Shown in pieces: positions 50,914-63,098 of a stretch of 64,000 nucleotides of DNA. The position numbers and the translations under genes were made by a program. Origin of the DNA: Massilia sp. YIM B02443 (GTDB lineage: Bacteria; Pseudomonadota; Gammaproteobacteria; Burkholderiales; Burkholderiaceae_D); assembly GCF_030411955.1 (NCBI RefSeq), contig NZ_JASNRA010000008.1, positions 62,001-126,000 of the forward strand, in the 5' to 3' direction. A model generated the notes under the pieces. It was not told the origin of the DNA. It did no database searches and worked only from the letters and a program-made list of their open reading frames with translations. How positions within the stretch are numbered: position 1 is the stretch's first letter; the number at the start of each line of letters is the position of its first letter.

Positions 50914-53052
50914 TCATAGCGTTTGCTCCCAGGTCAGGCGCCAGGTGGTGGCCGGGCGATACAGCGTGGTGCGCAGCAGTGGGCTGCTGCCGTCGAAGAA
51001 ACTGCTGTCGCGGGTGTCGCGGCGCAGCAGGTCGCTGGCCGACAGGCGCAGGCGCGATGTGGCGTCGCGCCGCCAGACGGCGTACAGGTCGAGCTGGCGC
51101 GTGCTGCCTTCTTCGTTGAACACCCATGCGCCGGCGCGGTAGGCGGCGCGCCCGCGCAGGGTGAAGCTGCCGCCCAGGTCGAGGCGGGCGCGCTCCAGCG
51201 TGGTGTCGAGCCCGAGGTTGCCGCTCCAGGCGGGCTGACCGGCGATGCGGTTGCCTGGCCCCGCCAGGCTGTCGATGCGCGACCAGTTGCGCGCCAGGTT
51301 GACGCGCGCGCCGAGCTGTCCGCGCCGCGTCTTGCCTTCGAACTCGAGGCCGCGCACGGTGGCGTTGCCCGCGTTGTCCGGACTGGCAGTCCACACACCG
51401 TCGTCCAACGCGACGCGGGTCAGCGTGATGTCGCGGATGCGTTTATGAAAGGCGGTGAGGGCGATCATGTCGTCCTTGCCCATGCTGCGCTCCCACGCCA
51501 GGTCGATGCCCAGAGCGAGTTCGGGACGCAGGCGCGGATTGCCCAGCTGGTCCGGATTGGTGGGATTGTTGTTATTGTCGACCGCGTAGCGGCGCGGCAT
51601 CAGCTGCACGATGTTCGGCGCTTTATAGGTGCGGCTGACGGCCAGCCGCAAGCCGTCCTGCGCCGCGCCTTCGGCGGACGGCGCGCGGTACAGGGTCTGG
51701 AAGATCGGGCTCCAGGCGCCGGCGTCGACGTCGACCGCCGCCGCCGCATTGCCCTGGCCCGTGGTGCGCAGGTCTTCGCGGCGCAGGCCGGCGTAGGCCG
51801 ACCATGCCGGCGTGATGTCCCATTCGTCCTGCACGAAGAAGGCGGTACGTGTCACGGTGGCGCGGTAGTCCTCGTCGCTCTCGAGCAGCAAGGTTCCGGC
51901 CGGATCGCGGCGCTGCTCGCGGCGGTATTCGTCGCGCCGCTTGCGGCCCGCTTCCCAGCCCGCCGCCAGCGTGTGATTGCCCCACAGCGGCCGGCGCCAG
52001 CTGCCGTTGAAGACCCCTTCGCGCTCGCTCGGGCCCGAGGCCACCCGGCGCGTTTCGAGCAGGGTGTCTTGCAGGTCCATGCCGCGGTAGTCGAAATCGG
52101 CGTCGCGCGTCACGTGAAAACCCGCCAGCTTGAGCGCTAGGCGTGCACCACCTTCGAGCCGGCGCGTCAACGCCAGTTCGGCATACGCGCGCGCGGCGCG
52201 CGCGGCGTAGCGCTGGCCGGCACGGGGAAAGGCGGTGGCGCTGCCGGCCCGGGTGGTCTCGTCCTCGCTCTTGACGTTGTCGATGCGGCGCCGGCGCAGG
52301 TAGCCTTGCAGGCTGACGTTGTCGAGCGCATCGCGCTGCCATGCCAGGCGCGGCGCCAGTTCCAGCACGTCTTCCACCTGGCGGTCGGTCCAGTCGGTGC
52401 GGCGCAGCAGGGGCGGATTGCTGCCTTCCTCGAACGTGATGGCGCTGATCGGATTGCGGTTGCGCCTGAGCGTGACGTTCGCGCCATACGACAGCGCGCC
52501 GCTGCGCGCGCTGTGCTGGGCCAGCAACTGCGGTGCGGCGTCGCCGTCGGTCACGGACAGTCCCGGCTTGATCTCGGTGCCGTTCGCGCCGCCGCCCGTG
52601 CGTTTGAGGATCACGTTGATGGTGCCGGCCATGGCCTGGCCGCTGGTCTCGGCGGTGGCGGTGCGGCGGATCTCGATGCGCTCGATCAGGTCGGGACTGA
52701 GCGATTCGAGCGAGAAGCCGGCCGGCGCCGGCAAGCCGTTGAGCAGGATCGCAACGTGCTCGCCGCCCATGCCGCGCATGCGGATCGTGGCCGGCTTGCC
52801 GGGGCCGGATTCGAGCGTGATGCCGGGCTGGCGCTTGAGCACGTCGGCCAGGCTGGCGTCGCCCTGGCGCGTCAGCTCGTCGCGCCCGACGACGATCGCG
52901 CTCGTGGTCGATCCGGTGCGGGTGTCGGCCGAGGCGCTGACCAGCACCTGTTGCGGCGGCGCGGCTTCGGTTTGCGGCAGGGACTGGGCCAGCGCACAGG
53001 CGTGCGCCGCCAGCAGCAGCGCGCCGGCGCTGCCGTTTCGGTTGATTCGCAT
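50914..53052 (-). CDS. TonB-dependent outer-membrane receptor
   Basis: 712 residues. The signal peptide ends near residue 22 (ACALA-QS). The plug domain (LADVLKRQPGITLESG, IRMRGMGGEHVAILLNG, RIEIRRTATAETSG) is followed by a 22-strand-type barrel. The C-terminus TWRLTWEQTL is barrel-like but ends in Leu rather than the usual aromatic residue. It lies 18 bases after the M56-M23 gene and is therefore the likely output of the BlaI-type circuit. Substrate unknown; no siderophore-specific motif seen. Confidence 0.9.
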   Translation of the reverse strand: MRINRNGSAGALLLAAHACALAQSLPQTEAAPPQQVLVSASADTRTGSTTSAIVVGRDELTRQGDASLADVLKRQPGITLESGPGKPATIRMRGMGGEHVAILLNGLPAPAGFSLESLSPDLIERIEIRRTATAETSGQAMAGTINVILKRTGGGANGTEIKPGLSVTDGDAAPQLLAQHSARSGALSYGANVTLRRNRNPISAITFEEGSNPPLLRRTDWTDRQVEDVLELAPRLAWQRDALDNVSLQGYLRRRRIDNVKSEDETTRAGSATAFPRAGQRYAARAARAYAELALTRRLEGGARLALKLAGFHVTRDADFDYRGMDLQDTLLETRRVASGPSEREGVFNGSWRRPLWGNHTLAAGWEAGRKRRDEYRREQRRDPAGTLLLESDEDYRATVTRTAFFVQDEWDITPAWSAYAGLRREDLRTTGQGNAAAAVDVDAGAWSPIFQTLYRAPSAEGAAQDGLRLAVSRTYKAPNIVQLMPRRYAVDNNNNPTNPDQLGNPRLRPELALGIDLAWERSMGKDDMIALTAFHKRIRDITLTRVALDDGVWTASPDNAGNATVRGLEFEGKTRRGQLGARVNLARNWSRIDSLAGPGNRIAGQPAWSGNLGLDTTLERARLDLGGSFTLRGRAAYRAGAWVFNEEGSTRQLDLYAVWRRDATSRLRLSASDLLRRDTRDSSFFDGSSPLLRTTLYRPATTWRLTWEQTL

Positions 53053-53070
53053 GGTGATTACAGGTCCGGG

Positions 53071-54666
53071 TTACAGATCGGTAGGAAGGGGATTGCCCTG
53101 CGCGCTGCGCTGGGCCAGCGCTTTCGGCGTGGCGTGCCCGAGCAGGTGCGGCAGCACCAGGCGTGGATCGAGGCGGCGGCCGTCCTGCCAGTATTCCAGG
53201 TGCAGGTGCGGACCGGTGGCCTTGCCGCTGGCGCCGGCCGTGCCGAGCGCTTCACCGGTGGCCACCAGCTGGCCGGGTACGACGTCGATGCGGTCGAGAT
53301 GGATCAGCAGCGAACTGCGCCCGCCGCCGTGGCCGACGCGCACGTAATGGCCCCAGGCGTCGTCGAAGCCGGCTTCGAGCACCGCCCCGGCGGCGACCGC
53401 ATGGACCGGCGTGCCGCGCCGCGCCGCAAAGTCGATGCCGCGATGGCCCTGCGGCCGGCTGGGACTGCGCACGCCGTACAGGCTGGTGACGCGCGGCTGC
53501 GGCATCGGGTATTGCCAGGCTTCGTGCACGTGCGCCGGCGCTGGTGCGTTGGCGACGGCATGCGCCGCCGGCGCCTGCGCCACTGGGGCCGAGGAGAAGG
53601 CCGGCTGCAATGCCGCGCCGATCAGGACGATGCCCGCCGCGCCGGCGCCGGCCAGTGCGCGAGCGCGCCCGGACAGGCGCTGCGGGCCCGCCATGCGCAT
53701 GCGCTGGACGCGCTCCGTCATGCCGCTGCCGGCGGCGCCGAAGGCCGCGCCCCAACTGGCGCCGGCCGGGCCTTGCCACGAAGCCTGCACCCGCAGCTGC
53801 GCCACCAGGGCCGCCGCATAGCTGCGGCGTTCGACGGACGCACGCCCGGCCAGCACCGCATCGTCGCATCCGAGTTCCACCGCTTCGCGCAGGGCTTCAT
53901 CCAGGCGGCGCAGGGGACGGTTGAACCAGAACGCCAGCGCCAGGGCGCTTGAAATCGCCAGCCACAGCGGATCGGTGCGGCGCCAGTGGGTCAGTTCGTG
54001 TTCGACGATCAGCTGCTGCTGCGCGACGTTCATCGCGGACAGGTGCGTCGGCAGCAGCAGGCAAGGGCGGCGCACGCCATGCAGCAGCGGCGAGACCTGC
54101 AGCGTGGTGGTGCGCACCGCCAGGCCCGCGGCCGCGATCCGTGCCCGCTGCGACGGCGTCATCGCGCTGCAGGCCTGCAGCTCGGCGTCGTTCATCAGGC
54201 GGCTATGCGCCTGCATCAGCGCCTGCCAGCGGCGCGCGCCATGCCAGCGGCGTGCCGATTGCAGCGCCAGGGCGGCCAGGTAGACGGTCAGCCAGGCGGC
54301 TGGCAGCCAGTGCAGCAGCGTGGCGTTGAATTCCGGCTGCGGCACTGCGCCGGATGCCAGCGGCGCCGCTGCGTCGGCGTCGGCGAAGGACGCCGGCATC
54401 GCGGCCGGCGCCGCCATTGGCCCGGCATCCGGCACGGCCACGTCGAGGGTCGGCGCCAGCGCACTGCGCGGCACGGGAACCAGCGCCAGCAGGAACACCA
54501 GCACCACGGCGGCCTGGGCCAGCAACCAGATGCTGCGATGGGCGCGCAGCGCAGGCCAGCGCAGGCAGGCAGCGCGCAGCACGATGGCCAGCGACCCAGC
54601 GAGCACCAGGCTGCCGGCGCAGGCCGCGCCGAAGCGCGCCAGCATCAGCCACAGGTCGGCGCTCAT
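53071..54666 (-). CDS. M56-M23 fusion: BlaR1-like membrane peptidase with a LytM domain
   Basis: 531 residues. Membrane segments at about 8-32, 45-63, 116-136 and 337-357. The M56 zinc site is VEHELTH (H223, E224, H227) with ELGCDD near 264-269. After the last membrane segment comes a periplasmic M23 domain with GHRGID (H408, D412), IHLD (H456) and PHLHL (H487, H489), all metal ligands intact. BlaR1 normally has a penicillin-binding sensor in this place. By analogy the M56 part would cleave the BlaI-type repressor encoded immediately upstream, whose stop overlaps this ATG. The M23 part may sense or cut peptidoglycan. Confidence 0.9.
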   Translation of the reverse strand: MSADLWLMLARFGAACAGSLVLAGSLAIVLRAACLRWPALRAHRSIWLLAQAAVVLVFLLALVPVPRSALAPTLDVAVPDAGPMAAPAAMPASFADADAAAPLASGAVPQPEFNATLLHWLPAAWLTVYLAALALQSARRWHGARRWQALMQAHSRLMNDAELQACSAMTPSQRARIAAAGLAVRTTTLQVSPLLHGVRRPCLLLPTHLSAMNVAQQQLIVEHELTHWRRTDPLWLAISSALALAFWFNRPLRRLDEALREAVELGCDDAVLAGRASVERRSYAAALVAQLRVQASWQGPAGASWGAAFGAAGSGMTERVQRMRMAGPQRLSGRARALAGAGAAGIVLIGAALQPAFSSAPVAQAPAAHAVANAPAPAHVHEAWQYPMPQPRVTSLYGVRSPSRPQGHRGIDFAARRGTPVHAVAAGAVLEAGFDDAWGHYVRVGHGGGRSSLLIHLDRIDVVPGQLVATGEALGTAGASGKATGPHLHLEYWQDGRRLDPRLVLPHLLGHATPKALAQRSAQGNPLPTDL

Positions 54667-55049
54667 GCCTCGTCCCCCGGCCAGTCCTGCAGCAGATTGT
54701 CGAGGCGTTCGAGCTCCTGCTGGTCGACCAGTTTGCTGCCGGTGAACATCGCCACCGACAAGGGCGCTTCCATCTCCATCACGCGCACGCTGAAGTCGCG
54801 CGCGAACGCGGCCAGCGTGCCGACCTTTTCCAGCAGCGGACGGTACACCTGAATGCCGTCCTGGGACGCTTGCGCCACCATGCCCTTGTCAAGCATGCGT
54901 TCCAGCGTCTTGCGGGTCGACGAAAACGACCAGCCCAGTTCATCTTCGACGCGCGCATGCAGTTCGCGCGCAGTCAAAGGCGCCTGGCGCCACATCGCCT
55001 TCAAGAGGCTCAGTTCGGTGGGAGAAGGAATCGTGGACGTCGCTTGCAT
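54663..55049 (-). CDS. BlaI/MecI/CopY-family repressor
   Basis: 128 residues from ATG 55047-55049 with AAGGAGG 4-5 bases before it. Winged helix from about residue 8 (SPTELSLLKAMWRQAPLTARELH) and a C-terminal dimerisation and cleavage region. Forms an overlapping pair with the M56-M23 gene (ATGA). Two GACAnnTGTC sites lie 29 to 79 bases upstream and are probably its operators, giving autorepression. In BlaI the cleavage by BlaR1 relieves repression; here the same is inferred. Confidence 0.92.
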   Translation of the reverse strand: MQATSTIPSPTELSLLKAMWRQAPLTARELHARVEDELGWSFSSTRKTLERMLDKGMVAQASQDGIQVYRPLLEKVGTLAAFARDFSVRVMEMEAPLSVAMFTGSKLVDQQELERLDNLLQDWPGDEA

Positions 55050-55077
55050 GGTGCCTCCTTGATGTTGCAAACGATTA

Positions 55078-55128
55078 TGCGACACTTGTCACATGCACCG
55101 CAAGGGGTTTATGCGACATATGTCGCAT
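55078..55128. promoter_or_regulatory. Twin operators of the BlaI-type repressor
   Basis: Site 1 TGCGACACTTGTCACA (55078-55093) and site 2 ATGCGACATATGTCGCAT (55111-55128), an 18-bp perfect palindrome. Both share TGCGACAnnTGTC; centres are 34 bases apart, about three helical turns. BlaI/CopY boxes are TACAnnTGTA, so this looks like a family variant with G/C at the outer positions. Confidence 0.7.
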
Positions 55129-58337: not shown

Positions 58338-60515
58338 ATGGCACCATTGGATCCTACCGGGCTCGAGTCCGTCGTCGATGAGATTCAGGACGACGCCAGT
58401 CCGCAGCAAACTGGTACGCAGATGAGCTACGAGGAAATCTCGAACCTGACGAACGGCGAACTGGGGCTGGGCGAGCACGACGAAGAAGCGCCCGGCGTCG
58501 CGGCCGAAGGCACGCCGTATCTACCGCCGCAACCGCTACCGATTCCGACCCCGAAACCGCCGATCCCGATCCCGCCGATCCCGATCCCGGTCATCAAGAA
58601 GGCGGTCAGCGGCTGCTACAAGGGCGCGCTGGGCAGCTTCCAGGTCGAGCTGCGGGTCGACGTCGACCGCGGCCGCACCATGAAGCGCGTCAGCGGCGAC
58701 TTTTACCAGACGGTCGGCAAGACCACCACCTATTTCGGCTCCTTCACCGTGGACAGCCCGGCGATCACGGTCACCGCGACCCGCATCGTGGCGCGCGGCC
58801 TGGGCCGCTTCACGTTCTCGGCCGGCGCGCCGGTGGTGCAGGTCACCATCCCGCGCGTGAGCCTGTTCCTGCCGCAGGCGCCGGCCAGCCTGCAGTTCTA
58901 TACCGTCACCAATGCGCCGGGCGCCAACTACCATTGCCCGTTCACGACCTCGCGCTACCGCACGGTGCGCATCGAAACCGACCGCGTGTCGGACGTCACC
59001 ACGCCCGTGTTCAGCAGCTATAACACCGGTTCGCTGCCGTCGGGCGGCGCGGCGCGCTCGATCAGCGTGGTGAGCGCCTTCGGCGAAGCCGGCATCGGCA
59101 TGTCCACCGTCCCGGGCGGCGTTGTCGACATCAGCGGTGCAGGCGCCGGCGCCAGCTGGAGCAACGCCGAGCTGCATGCTTCGATGCAGACCCAGTTCTC
59201 GCTATGGGCCGACGTGGCCCAGTGGTGCGTGTGGGAGCTGGTGGCGCAGAACCACGACCTGGGCAGCGGGCTATACGGCATCATGTTCGACCAGCAGGGC
59301 AAGCAGCGCCAGGGCTGCGCCGTGTTCCATGCAGGGATCGGCGGCACCTCGGCCGAGCAGCTGCGGCTGCAGCTGTACACCTACGTGCACGAACTGGGGC
59401 ACTGCTTCAACCTGATGCACTCGTGGCAGAAATCGTATGCCTCGCCGCCCAAGGCCAACCGCCCCAGCGCGCTGTCGTGGATGAACTACCCGTGGTACTA
59501 CCCGAGCGGCGGCGCATCGGGCTTCTGGAACAGTTTCGACTTCCGCTTCGACGACGAAGAGCTGATCCACCTGCGCCACGGCTTCCGCAACGACGTCATC
59601 ATGGGCGGCAACAACTTCACGGCCGGCGCTTCGCTCGGCAGGGAAGTGATGGCCGACGCGATCGAGGACGAATCGGGCCTGCGCTTCGAGATCTCGACCC
59701 ACCAGAAGAGCTTTGCGCTGGGCGAGCCGGTGGTGCTCCAACTCAAGCTGCAGGCCAACGACATGCGCGGCCGCCGCGCCCACAGCTGGCTGCATCCGAA
59801 TTGCGGGCTGGTGAAGGTCATCGTGCAAAAGCCGAGCGGCGAGGTGAAGGCCTACGAGCCGATGATCGACCACCTGGTGGGCGAACGCGCCACGGTGTTG
59901 AAGGCGAACGACGCGATCCGCGACAGCGCCTACATCGGCTACGGCAAGGACGGCTTCTATTTCGACCAGCCGGGCCAGTACCGGGTGCGCGCGGTGTATG
60001 CGGCGCTGGACGGCTCGCAGGTGCTGTCCGACCTGATCACGATCCGGGTGCGCTATCCGGTCAGTGCCGAAGAAGACCGGATGGCCGAACTGTTCCTGGG
60101 CGACGACCAGGGCGCGCTGCTGTACCTGCAGGGTTCGGACAGCGAAGCGCTGCGCGCCGGTAACGAAGCGTTCGAGGAAGTGCTGGACCGCTTCGGCGCC
60201 CATCCGATGGCGACCTATGTGCGCATGATCAAGGGCGTCAACCTGGGCCGCACCTTCAAGACCGTGGGCGCGGGCGGGCAGGCTGCGGCCAGCGAAGGCA
60301 AGCCGCTCGGCGTGCGCGAAGCCAGGCCGCAGGAAAGCATCGCGCTGCTGTCGAACGTGACCGCATCAGCGGTGCTCGATCCGGTGACCCAGGACCAGGC
60401 GCTGATGATGCTGTCGAGCGTGCAGAAGGCGATCGGCGACGACAAGGGCGCGAACGCGACCCTGAGCCAGCTGTCGGTGTCGTCCGCGGCGGCGTCGACC
60501 GCCCGCAAGCCATGA
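58338..60515 (+). CDS. Metzincin-like metalloprotease-related protein, family unknown
   Basis: 725 residues from ATG 58338 with AAGGAG 6 bases upstream. The first ~60 residues are acidic and disordered. A proline-rich linker follows at 61-86 (repeats of PIPIP). HELGHCFNLMH (351-361) fits the metzincin HExxHxxxxxH zinc site, though Asn replaces the usual Gly, and SWMNYPWY (380-387) is a fitting Met-turn. The C-terminal ~300 residues have a beta-rich region and a helical tail. There is no signal peptide, so either it stays inside or it uses a non-Sec route. I do not recognise the whole-protein family. 7 bases separate it from a secreted small protein. Confidence 0.8.
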   Translation: MAPLDPTGLESVVDEIQDDASPQQTGTQMSYEEISNLTNGELGLGEHDEEAPGVAAEGTPYLPPQPLPIPTPKPPIPIPPIPIPVIKKAVSGCYKGALGSFQVELRVDVDRGRTMKRVSGDFYQTVGKTTTYFGSFTVDSPAITVTATRIVARGLGRFTFSAGAPVVQVTIPRVSLFLPQAPASLQFYTVTNAPGANYHCPFTTSRYRTVRIETDRVSDVTTPVFSSYNTGSLPSGGAARSISVVSAFGEAGIGMSTVPGGVVDISGAGAGASWSNAELHASMQTQFSLWADVAQWCVWELVAQNHDLGSGLYGIMFDQQGKQRQGCAVFHAGIGGTSAEQLRLQLYTYVHELGHCFNLMHSWQKSYASPPKANRPSALSWMNYPWYYPSGGASGFWNSFDFRFDDEELIHLRHGFRNDVIMGGNNFTAGASLGREVMADAIEDESGLRFEISTHQKSFALGEPVVLQLKLQANDMRGRRAHSWLHPNCGLVKVIVQKPSGEVKAYEPMIDHLVGERATVLKANDAIRDSAYIGYGKDGFYFDQPGQYRVRAVYAALDGSQVLSDLITIRVRYPVSAEEDRMAELFLGDDQGALLYLQGSDSEALRAGNEAFEEVLDRFGAHPMATYVRMIKGVNLGRTFKTVGAGGQAAASEGKPLGVREARPQESIALLSNVTASAVLDPVTQDQALMMLSSVQKAIGDDKGANATLSQLSVSSAAASTARKP

Positions 60516-61002: not shown

Positions 61003-63098
<2,096 letters not shown>

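Follow-up and report, generated by a model that had tools for sequence, protein, structure and literature searches.

To our knowledge, it is largely open by what means Gram-negative bacteria monitor the condition of their peptidoglycan from across the inner membrane, and a locus of the soil bacterium Massilia sp. YIM B02443 raises this question in a compact form. In the window analysed here (the whole stretch of 64,000 nucleotides, positions 62,001 to 126,000 of contig NZ_JASNRA010000008.1), the minus strand carries, from upstream to downstream, genes for a BlaI/MecI-type repressor (128 amino acids (aa), 54663-55049), a fusion of an M56 protease with an M23 domain (531 aa, 53071-54666) and a TonB-dependent receptor (712 aa, 50914-53052), behind two dyads 34 base pairs (bp) apart. 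A protease, a repressor, an operator and an output gene are packed into ~4 kilobases (kb). BlaR1 cleaves BlaI on signal; what would a protease of this kind sense through an M23 domain, and why would a TonB receptor be its neighbour? We consider it probable that the set is a BlaR1-like switch driven by the state or the fragments of the cell wall, which would derepress its own operon together with the receptor.

The initial annotation had described the three genes in this order on one strand, an ATGA overlap, an 18-base gap and paired palindromes before blaI, and coordinates and Pfam together confirm each of these elements: the overlap lies at 54663-54666, the gap at 53053-53070 and the palindromes at 55077-55094 and 55111-55128. 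Pfam assigns the repressor to Penicillinase_R (PF03965, 1.6e-18) and the receptor to Plug (PF07715, 1.3e-18) and the TonB barrel (PF00593, 4.8e-28), the plug occupying residues 48-144 ahead of the barrel in agreement with the structural model and fold matches. The likelier start of BlaI is the ATG at 55049 (128 aa) rather than the listed GTG at 55085, because the GTG falls inside an operator and the ATG has a Shine-Dalgarno-like AAGGAGG upstream (55054-55060, minus strand, read by eye).

Is the fusion built like BlaR1? It had been described as a BlaR1-like M56 protease with HELTH and four membrane segments, carrying an M23 domain with intact HxxxD and HxH in the sensor position, and both descriptions withstood scrutiny. 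Pfam finds Peptidase_M56 (8.8e-26) and Peptidase_M23 (3.8e-27) in this single protein, and PF00905 is absent from it at E 0.01 in the Pfam scan. HELTH is present in the gluzincin pattern H223ExxH227...E264xxxD268, and in an AlphaFold model built from 29 fusions (mean predicted local distance difference test (pLDDT) 85.5, predicted template modelling score (pTM) 0.63) helices 3-36, 44-62, 115-154 and 333-353 are consistent with four membrane segments. By VIA-align, residues 8-317 match Staphylococcus aureus BlaR1 (8exs; Z 16.2, 254 residues, root-mean-square deviation 5.2) and residues 376-508 match M23 proteins, EnvC, DipM and ShyA among them (Z 19-20); the fusion also matches 8exp by profile (E 3.5e-7). 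For BlaR1, passages of PMC9834060 discuss H201, E202, H205, D210, E242, D246, Y261, R294 and the autocleavage Phe284. By spacing and the 8exp profile alignment, their counterparts in the fusion are H223, E224, H227, D232, E264, D268, Y283, R319 and F309, respectively. H223, E224, H227, E264 and D268 are present in 63 of 63 distinct fusions and D232 and R319 are invariant across the 29, while Y283 and F309, invariant in 11 fusions, fall outside both the invariant and the 90% columns of the 29. The M23 domain itself (residues 407-501, 53164-53448, minus strand) contains H408 and D412, H456, and H487 and H489; D412, H456, H487 and H489 are unchanged in all 63 fusions, and H408, D412 and H489 we take to be the zinc ligands, as in M23 enzymes. 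By predicted structure, the fusion is a BlaR1 scaffold in which an M23 domain replaces the penicillin sensor.

Are the dyads plausible targets of BlaI? The outer one, O1 (55111-55128), is a perfect 18-base dyad, ATGCGACATATGTCGCAT, with no mismatch to the 16-mer core TGCGACANNTGTCGCA, and O2 (55077-55094) is the imperfect dyad ATGCGACACTTGTCACAT, which overlaps a likely promoter read by eye on the minus strand (55074-55103: TTGCGG at 55103-55098, 18 bp, CATAAT at 55079-55074). O1 and O2 are two of the three matches to the core in the window at up to two mismatches, where 0.44 would be expected by chance and a single shuffle in 100 gave as many as three. At the same tolerance the 16-mer occurs upstream of BlaI in 60 of the 61 fusion loci and 29 of the 30 penicillin-type loci in which a BlaI was found (9 of 39 penicillin-type loci had none), against 4 of 64 other M56 loci (L105, L111, L215 and L216; no BlaI was found in 11 of 75). 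Two such sites are present at 25 fusion loci, and at 24 of these they are spaced by 33 or 34 bp, much as O1 and O2 are. Across 805 kb around the 63 fusions there are 93 operator-like sites; the blaI promoter accounts for 79 of them, whereas the gap between fusion and receptor has none. In an eight-genome search allowing one mismatch, each of the 8 perfect sites and 4 of the 12 imperfect ones fell at a fusion promoter or a penicillin-type blaI promoter, and three genomes (G006, G007, G061) had no site at such a promoter. The dyads in the blaI promoter are candidate BlaI operators on the strength of site positions and perfect copies, rather than of genome-wide frequency. The repressor fits as well: by alignment to MecI, the window BlaI has MF where the cleavage bond of BlaI lies, and Phe stands at P1' in 60 of 61 fusion-partner BlaIs. 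Penicillin-type BlaIs of the same family have this Phe too, and the recognition helix is nearly identical between fusion-type and penicillin-type sets.

Is the arrangement kept in relatives? A search for other proteins with M56 followed by M23, which had been suggested at the outset, yielded 63 distinct fusions, whose neighbours were tabulated. Of 62 genomes of the genus, counting that of the window, 8 contain the fusion. A contig scan gave no matches with a single protein as query and then succeeded with an alignment; the best 80 of its 101 confirmed loci were kept, and these come from Massilia, Duganella, Janthinobacterium, Pseudoduganella, Telluria, Rugamonas, Solimicrobium and further members of the Oxalobacteraceae; one locus, L111, belongs to a metagenome-assembled genome labelled Burkholderiaceae and was not counted as a fusion. 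The M56 genes of L105 and L111 are cut by contig ends and are possibly further fusions, not judgeable as they stand. Because a homologous receptor follows all 51 distinct Oxalobacteraceae fusions (48 table rows, L076, the window (G000) and G012), as next or next-but-one gene, the proposed conservation of the three-gene order holds in this family. A transglycosylase gene lies between fusion and receptor at a sole locus of the 51 (L041, the same as L097), and BlaI is upstream of 49, the other two (L040, the same as L091, and L092) being at contig ends.

Beyond the family, a whole-fusion search at order level, with four candidates scored per genome, was swamped by M23-only proteins and is therefore silent on absence. 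Profile searches with M56 only (369 genomes of the class and 398 of the phylum, up to five candidates scored per genome) were complemented by a search of the family of G418 with its own fusion as query (119 genomes). Together these wide searches gave 83 loci, 12 of which carry M56 and M23 in one frame, all with BlaI; the 12 of 83 is not a rate, because the query with the fusion itself contributed four of them, and four weak M56 places (G1155, G902, G1232:C13 and G1194:C2:909684) stand outside the counts. BlaI adjoins 61 of the 63 fusions overall and the remaining two lie at contig ends. A receptor recognized by the family profile lies within 2.5 kb downstream of 54 of 63 fusions, compared with none of 39 penicillin-type and none of 75 other M56 genes; more distant receptors follow the penicillin-type genes of L121 and L123 (26-27%) and the other M56 genes of L215 and L216 (weak match). 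The fusion thus extends beyond Oxalobacteraceae, but it is regularly accompanied by the receptor only within that family and in some others. As a separate observation, L215 and L216 combine BlaI, M56 and a TonB receptor of a more distant kind, have a related operator, TACGACAATTGTCGCA, and are perhaps a parallel circuit.

How tightly, then, are receptor and sensor bound to each other? Close orthologues of the receptor (at least 53% identity) occur in 24 of the 62 same-genus genomes, 7 of which carry the fusion. At one amylase locus, the amylase gene is followed by the blaI set in L036 and directly by the receptor in L329, L330 and L333. In a receptor tree of 64 rows, sensor presence needs four changes; the distance rule used for this tree missed some receptors of fusion loci, of which only that of L037 was added later. 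The receptors of L041 and L042 group with five sensor-less receptors (95 in the Shimodaira-Hasegawa-like approximate likelihood ratio test), while their sensors group with that of L103 (100/99), that is, a sensor of another lineage stands beside the same kind of receptor. No sensor pair without a receptor was seen among the complete Oxalobacteraceae loci examined. From the amylase-locus contrast and the receptor tree, the receptor seems to persist while the sensor pair next to it is gained and lost. In 4 of 16 sensor-less loci (L319, L320, L321 and L327) a D-Ala-D-Ala carboxypeptidase gene (Peptidase_S13; 1.2e-79 for L319, the others by similarity) precedes the receptor, with a LytS-like kinase and a LytTR regulator beside it, a context that may be another link of the receptor to the wall.

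The same genome also carries a penicillin-type set (G000:C8, L043 5535-9355), which consists of BlaI, M56-PF00905, a member of the metallo-beta-lactamase superfamily and another protein with PF00905 that, judged by eye, is of class D type. Its BlaI is 67% identical to that of the window and its operator is similar, with two mismatches. In penicillin-type relatives PF00905 sits in the same place as M23, behind helix 4, and when fusion and penicillin-type protein of one genome are aligned by BLAST, the alignment stops at fusion residue 305, 314, 354 or 391 in the four pairs compared; LQPA at the end of helix 4 is common to three of these pairs, and the fourth penicillin-type protein has FQPA. 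One comparison set of M56 sequences comprised 62 of the 63 fusions (a filter on coverage removed L204), together with 39 rows of penicillin type and 35 of the 70 remaining M56 rows. The M56 tree was built from 14 of the 39 penicillin-type rows and 56 fusions, the long-branch L261, L207, L283, L277 and L289 and the fragment L040 having been set aside beforehand. In it the penicillin-type clade is nested among the M56-M23 proteins of Oxalobacteraceae, next to those of L061 and L074 (97/94), and six M56-M23 proteins of other families fall outside. This nesting is a lean and no proof, because an approximately unbiased (AU) test does not reject Oxalobacteraceae M56-M23 as a clade apart from the penicillin type (p 0.108). 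Under either tree, with M23 fusions as outgroup, the evidence leans towards M23 as the older sensor. A third BlaI-M56 set of this genome (G000:C14, L044 6601-8273) carries a TonB C-terminal domain and has a separate M56 type.

Starting from architecture, operator, gene order and conservation, which are seen directly, we infer the ligand and the cleavage of BlaI by analogy with BlaR1. At rest, BlaI dimers on both operators of their own promoter would hold blaI, the M56-M23 gene and the receptor gene off, as the operator position suggests. The M23 domain, presumably periplasmic behind the fourth membrane helix as the sensor is in BlaR1, may bind cell-wall peptide, either in stretched or damaged peptidoglycan or in released fragments. 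The signal would then cross the membrane to the M56 protease, which may cut BlaI before the conserved Phe; this cleavage is proposed because the fusion has the catalytic residues of BlaR1. Transcription of the operon would place the receptor in the outer membrane, and some lineages may also make the adjacent peptidoglycan enzymes.

The farther neighbours of the fusion set differ between genera. On the same strand in Oxalobacteraceae we find Transgly (L041, L037), Acyl_transf_3 (L037, L076, L103) and MipA (L042); an M23 gene beside the set in L085 (scanned) and in L081, L084, L092, L095 and L096 (by match); a polysaccharide deacetylase gene followed by a sigma factor in L074; and a 66-aa frame without family assignment in L091. 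Outside the family there are a deacetylase (L207), an M1 peptidase with an esterase (L225), an M1 peptidase after the receptor (L226), a PF00144 serine hydrolase with an esterase (L261), a resistance-nodulation-division (RND) pump (L283) and pirin (L289), while in L227, L228 and L277 no gene adjoins the set on its strand. The wall theme among neighbours is strong and not uniform. A stronger statement, under which almost every accessory gene would relate to the wall, does not stand, since a major facilitator superfamily transporter (L039), a patatin (L073), a CTP transferase (L069) and a MOFRL protein (L099) are among the neighbours. Apart from these tabulations, M1 peptidase and esterase genes in L204 (6299-9014) are divergent from the BlaI-fusion pair with an operator region in common, the fusion of L283 (5707-8058) has ~300 extra residues and precedes an AcrB-type pump, and the window encodes at 58422-60515 a 697-aa protein with a metalloprotease-like HELGHCFN motif and no Pfam family at 1e-3.

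Several of our observations weigh against a wall-driven switch that controls the receptor. The non-wall neighbours just named are among them. Outside Oxalobacteraceae the claimed three-gene order largely fails, with only 3 of 12 fusions preceding a homologous receptor (L209, L226, L263) and the other nine having other neighbours or none. The candidate operator was hardly more frequent than a reversed control in eight genomes (20 against 13 sites, one mismatch), and a simple consensus scan of the window gave no sigma-70 promoter above threshold. The receptor lacks the sensor in 17 of the 24 same-genus genomes that have it, and no operator with up to two mismatches was found near it in the 16 sensor-less loci examined; L328 has a single site, 3 kb away. 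This separate occurrence is what one would expect if the receptor were a passenger and the sensor regulated itself only, which we nonetheless regard as very improbable, given that the receptor follows 51 of 51 Oxalobacteraceae fusions while the outer neighbours change between genera, and that a sensor of another lineage stands beside the same kind of receptor in L041 and L042. Lastly, 60 of the 63 fusions retain H408 (it is Q in G012, and L in L080 and L089) and so have all five M23 residues intact, as an enzyme would require. Together with closest folds that include endopeptidases such as ShyA, this would suit an M23 part that is an effector, a membrane-tethered working wall endopeptidase under M56 control, with the receptor co-made for another reason. 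Such an effector seems unlikely to us: G012, L080 and L089 retain the operon without H408, PF00905 takes the place of M23 behind helix 4 in penicillin-type relatives, and the partner is a BlaI with Phe at the cleavage position.

The main rival, which overlaps with the reading we favour, is a defence circuit that would respond to wall-active peptide antibiotics or bacteriolytic enzymes with outputs by which these are destroyed or expelled. The neighbours in L261, L204, L225, L226 and L283 would be apt outputs, and the second circuit of the same genome is of beta-lactamase type; yet the constant Oxalobacteraceae neighbour is an import receptor, which could admit antibiotics, and the window operon has no such enzyme, so that we rate defence as possible and distinctly short of probable. 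Each half of the fusion is a domain with a zinc site, the window BlaI weakly matches CopY (33 bits, under the model cut-off) and the solved folds nearest to the receptor are heme and siderophore receptors, all of which would accord with a zinc- or metal-sensing circuit whose M23 domain reads periplasmic zinc and whose receptor imports a metal complex. However, H408 is lost in 3 of 63 fusions, wall genes are among the recurrent neighbours, and the receptor match, which spans several ligand classes that the search did not separate, is uninformative because TonB receptors of all classes share the fold; metal sensing is in our view quite unlikely. The cell-wall switch may also be taken further, to a circuit for sensing and taking up peptidoglycan fragments: M23 would read muropeptides of the own wall or of other bacteria, the receptor would import them, and M56-M23 would be older in the clade, the Oxalobacteraceae BlaR1-like proteins having arisen by a penicillin-binding domain replacing M23 behind helix 4, with both circuits on one operator. 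We regard this fuller version as doubtful; if true, the same regulon could respond both to wall fragments and to beta-lactams.

The switch driven by cell-wall state, as we favour it, makes the set a compact and testable candidate for cell-wall sensing, and one that named species such as Massilia aurea AT3.2 (L055) carry. The set further suggests that the M56 scaffold accepts several interchangeable sensors, of which the penicillin sensor is one, and that their exchange had a likely direction; for genomes with both circuits it predicts that wall sensing and the beta-lactam response influence each other. An M23+M56 architecture in InterPro has been mentioned (Razew et al., 2022; PMC9662197), and passages of that paper put proteins that combine M23 with another catalytic domain, M56 included, at under 1% of M23 hits; its passages on M23+M56 give no signalling role, operon or receptor for the fusion. 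In a literature search with most subscription journals outside its coverage, no title or abstract opening described a BlaI/M56-M23/receptor circuit.

Among known systems, the set is closest to BlaI-BlaR1 and MecI-MecR1, with which it shares a BlaI-type repressor, a membrane gluzincin of the same fold, promoter dyads and Phe at the cleavage position of the repressor. It differs from them in that M23 replaces the penicillin-binding sensor, and in that the next gene encodes a TonB receptor, not a beta-lactamase or PBP2a. Within the same genome, the L043 set (BlaI, M56/PF00905, metallo-beta-lactamase superfamily protein, PF00905) has a related M56 half and a similar operator, whereas its sensor is PF00905 and its neighbours are of beta-lactamase type; L044 shares BlaI and M56 with the window and differs by its TonB C-terminal domain and the absence of M23, and no dyad of at least 14 bases was reported in its upstream region. 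By its sequence, the window set is a member of the BlaI/M56 kind and not one of the BlaR1 beta-lactam receptors, from which both its predicted sensor and its predicted output differ.

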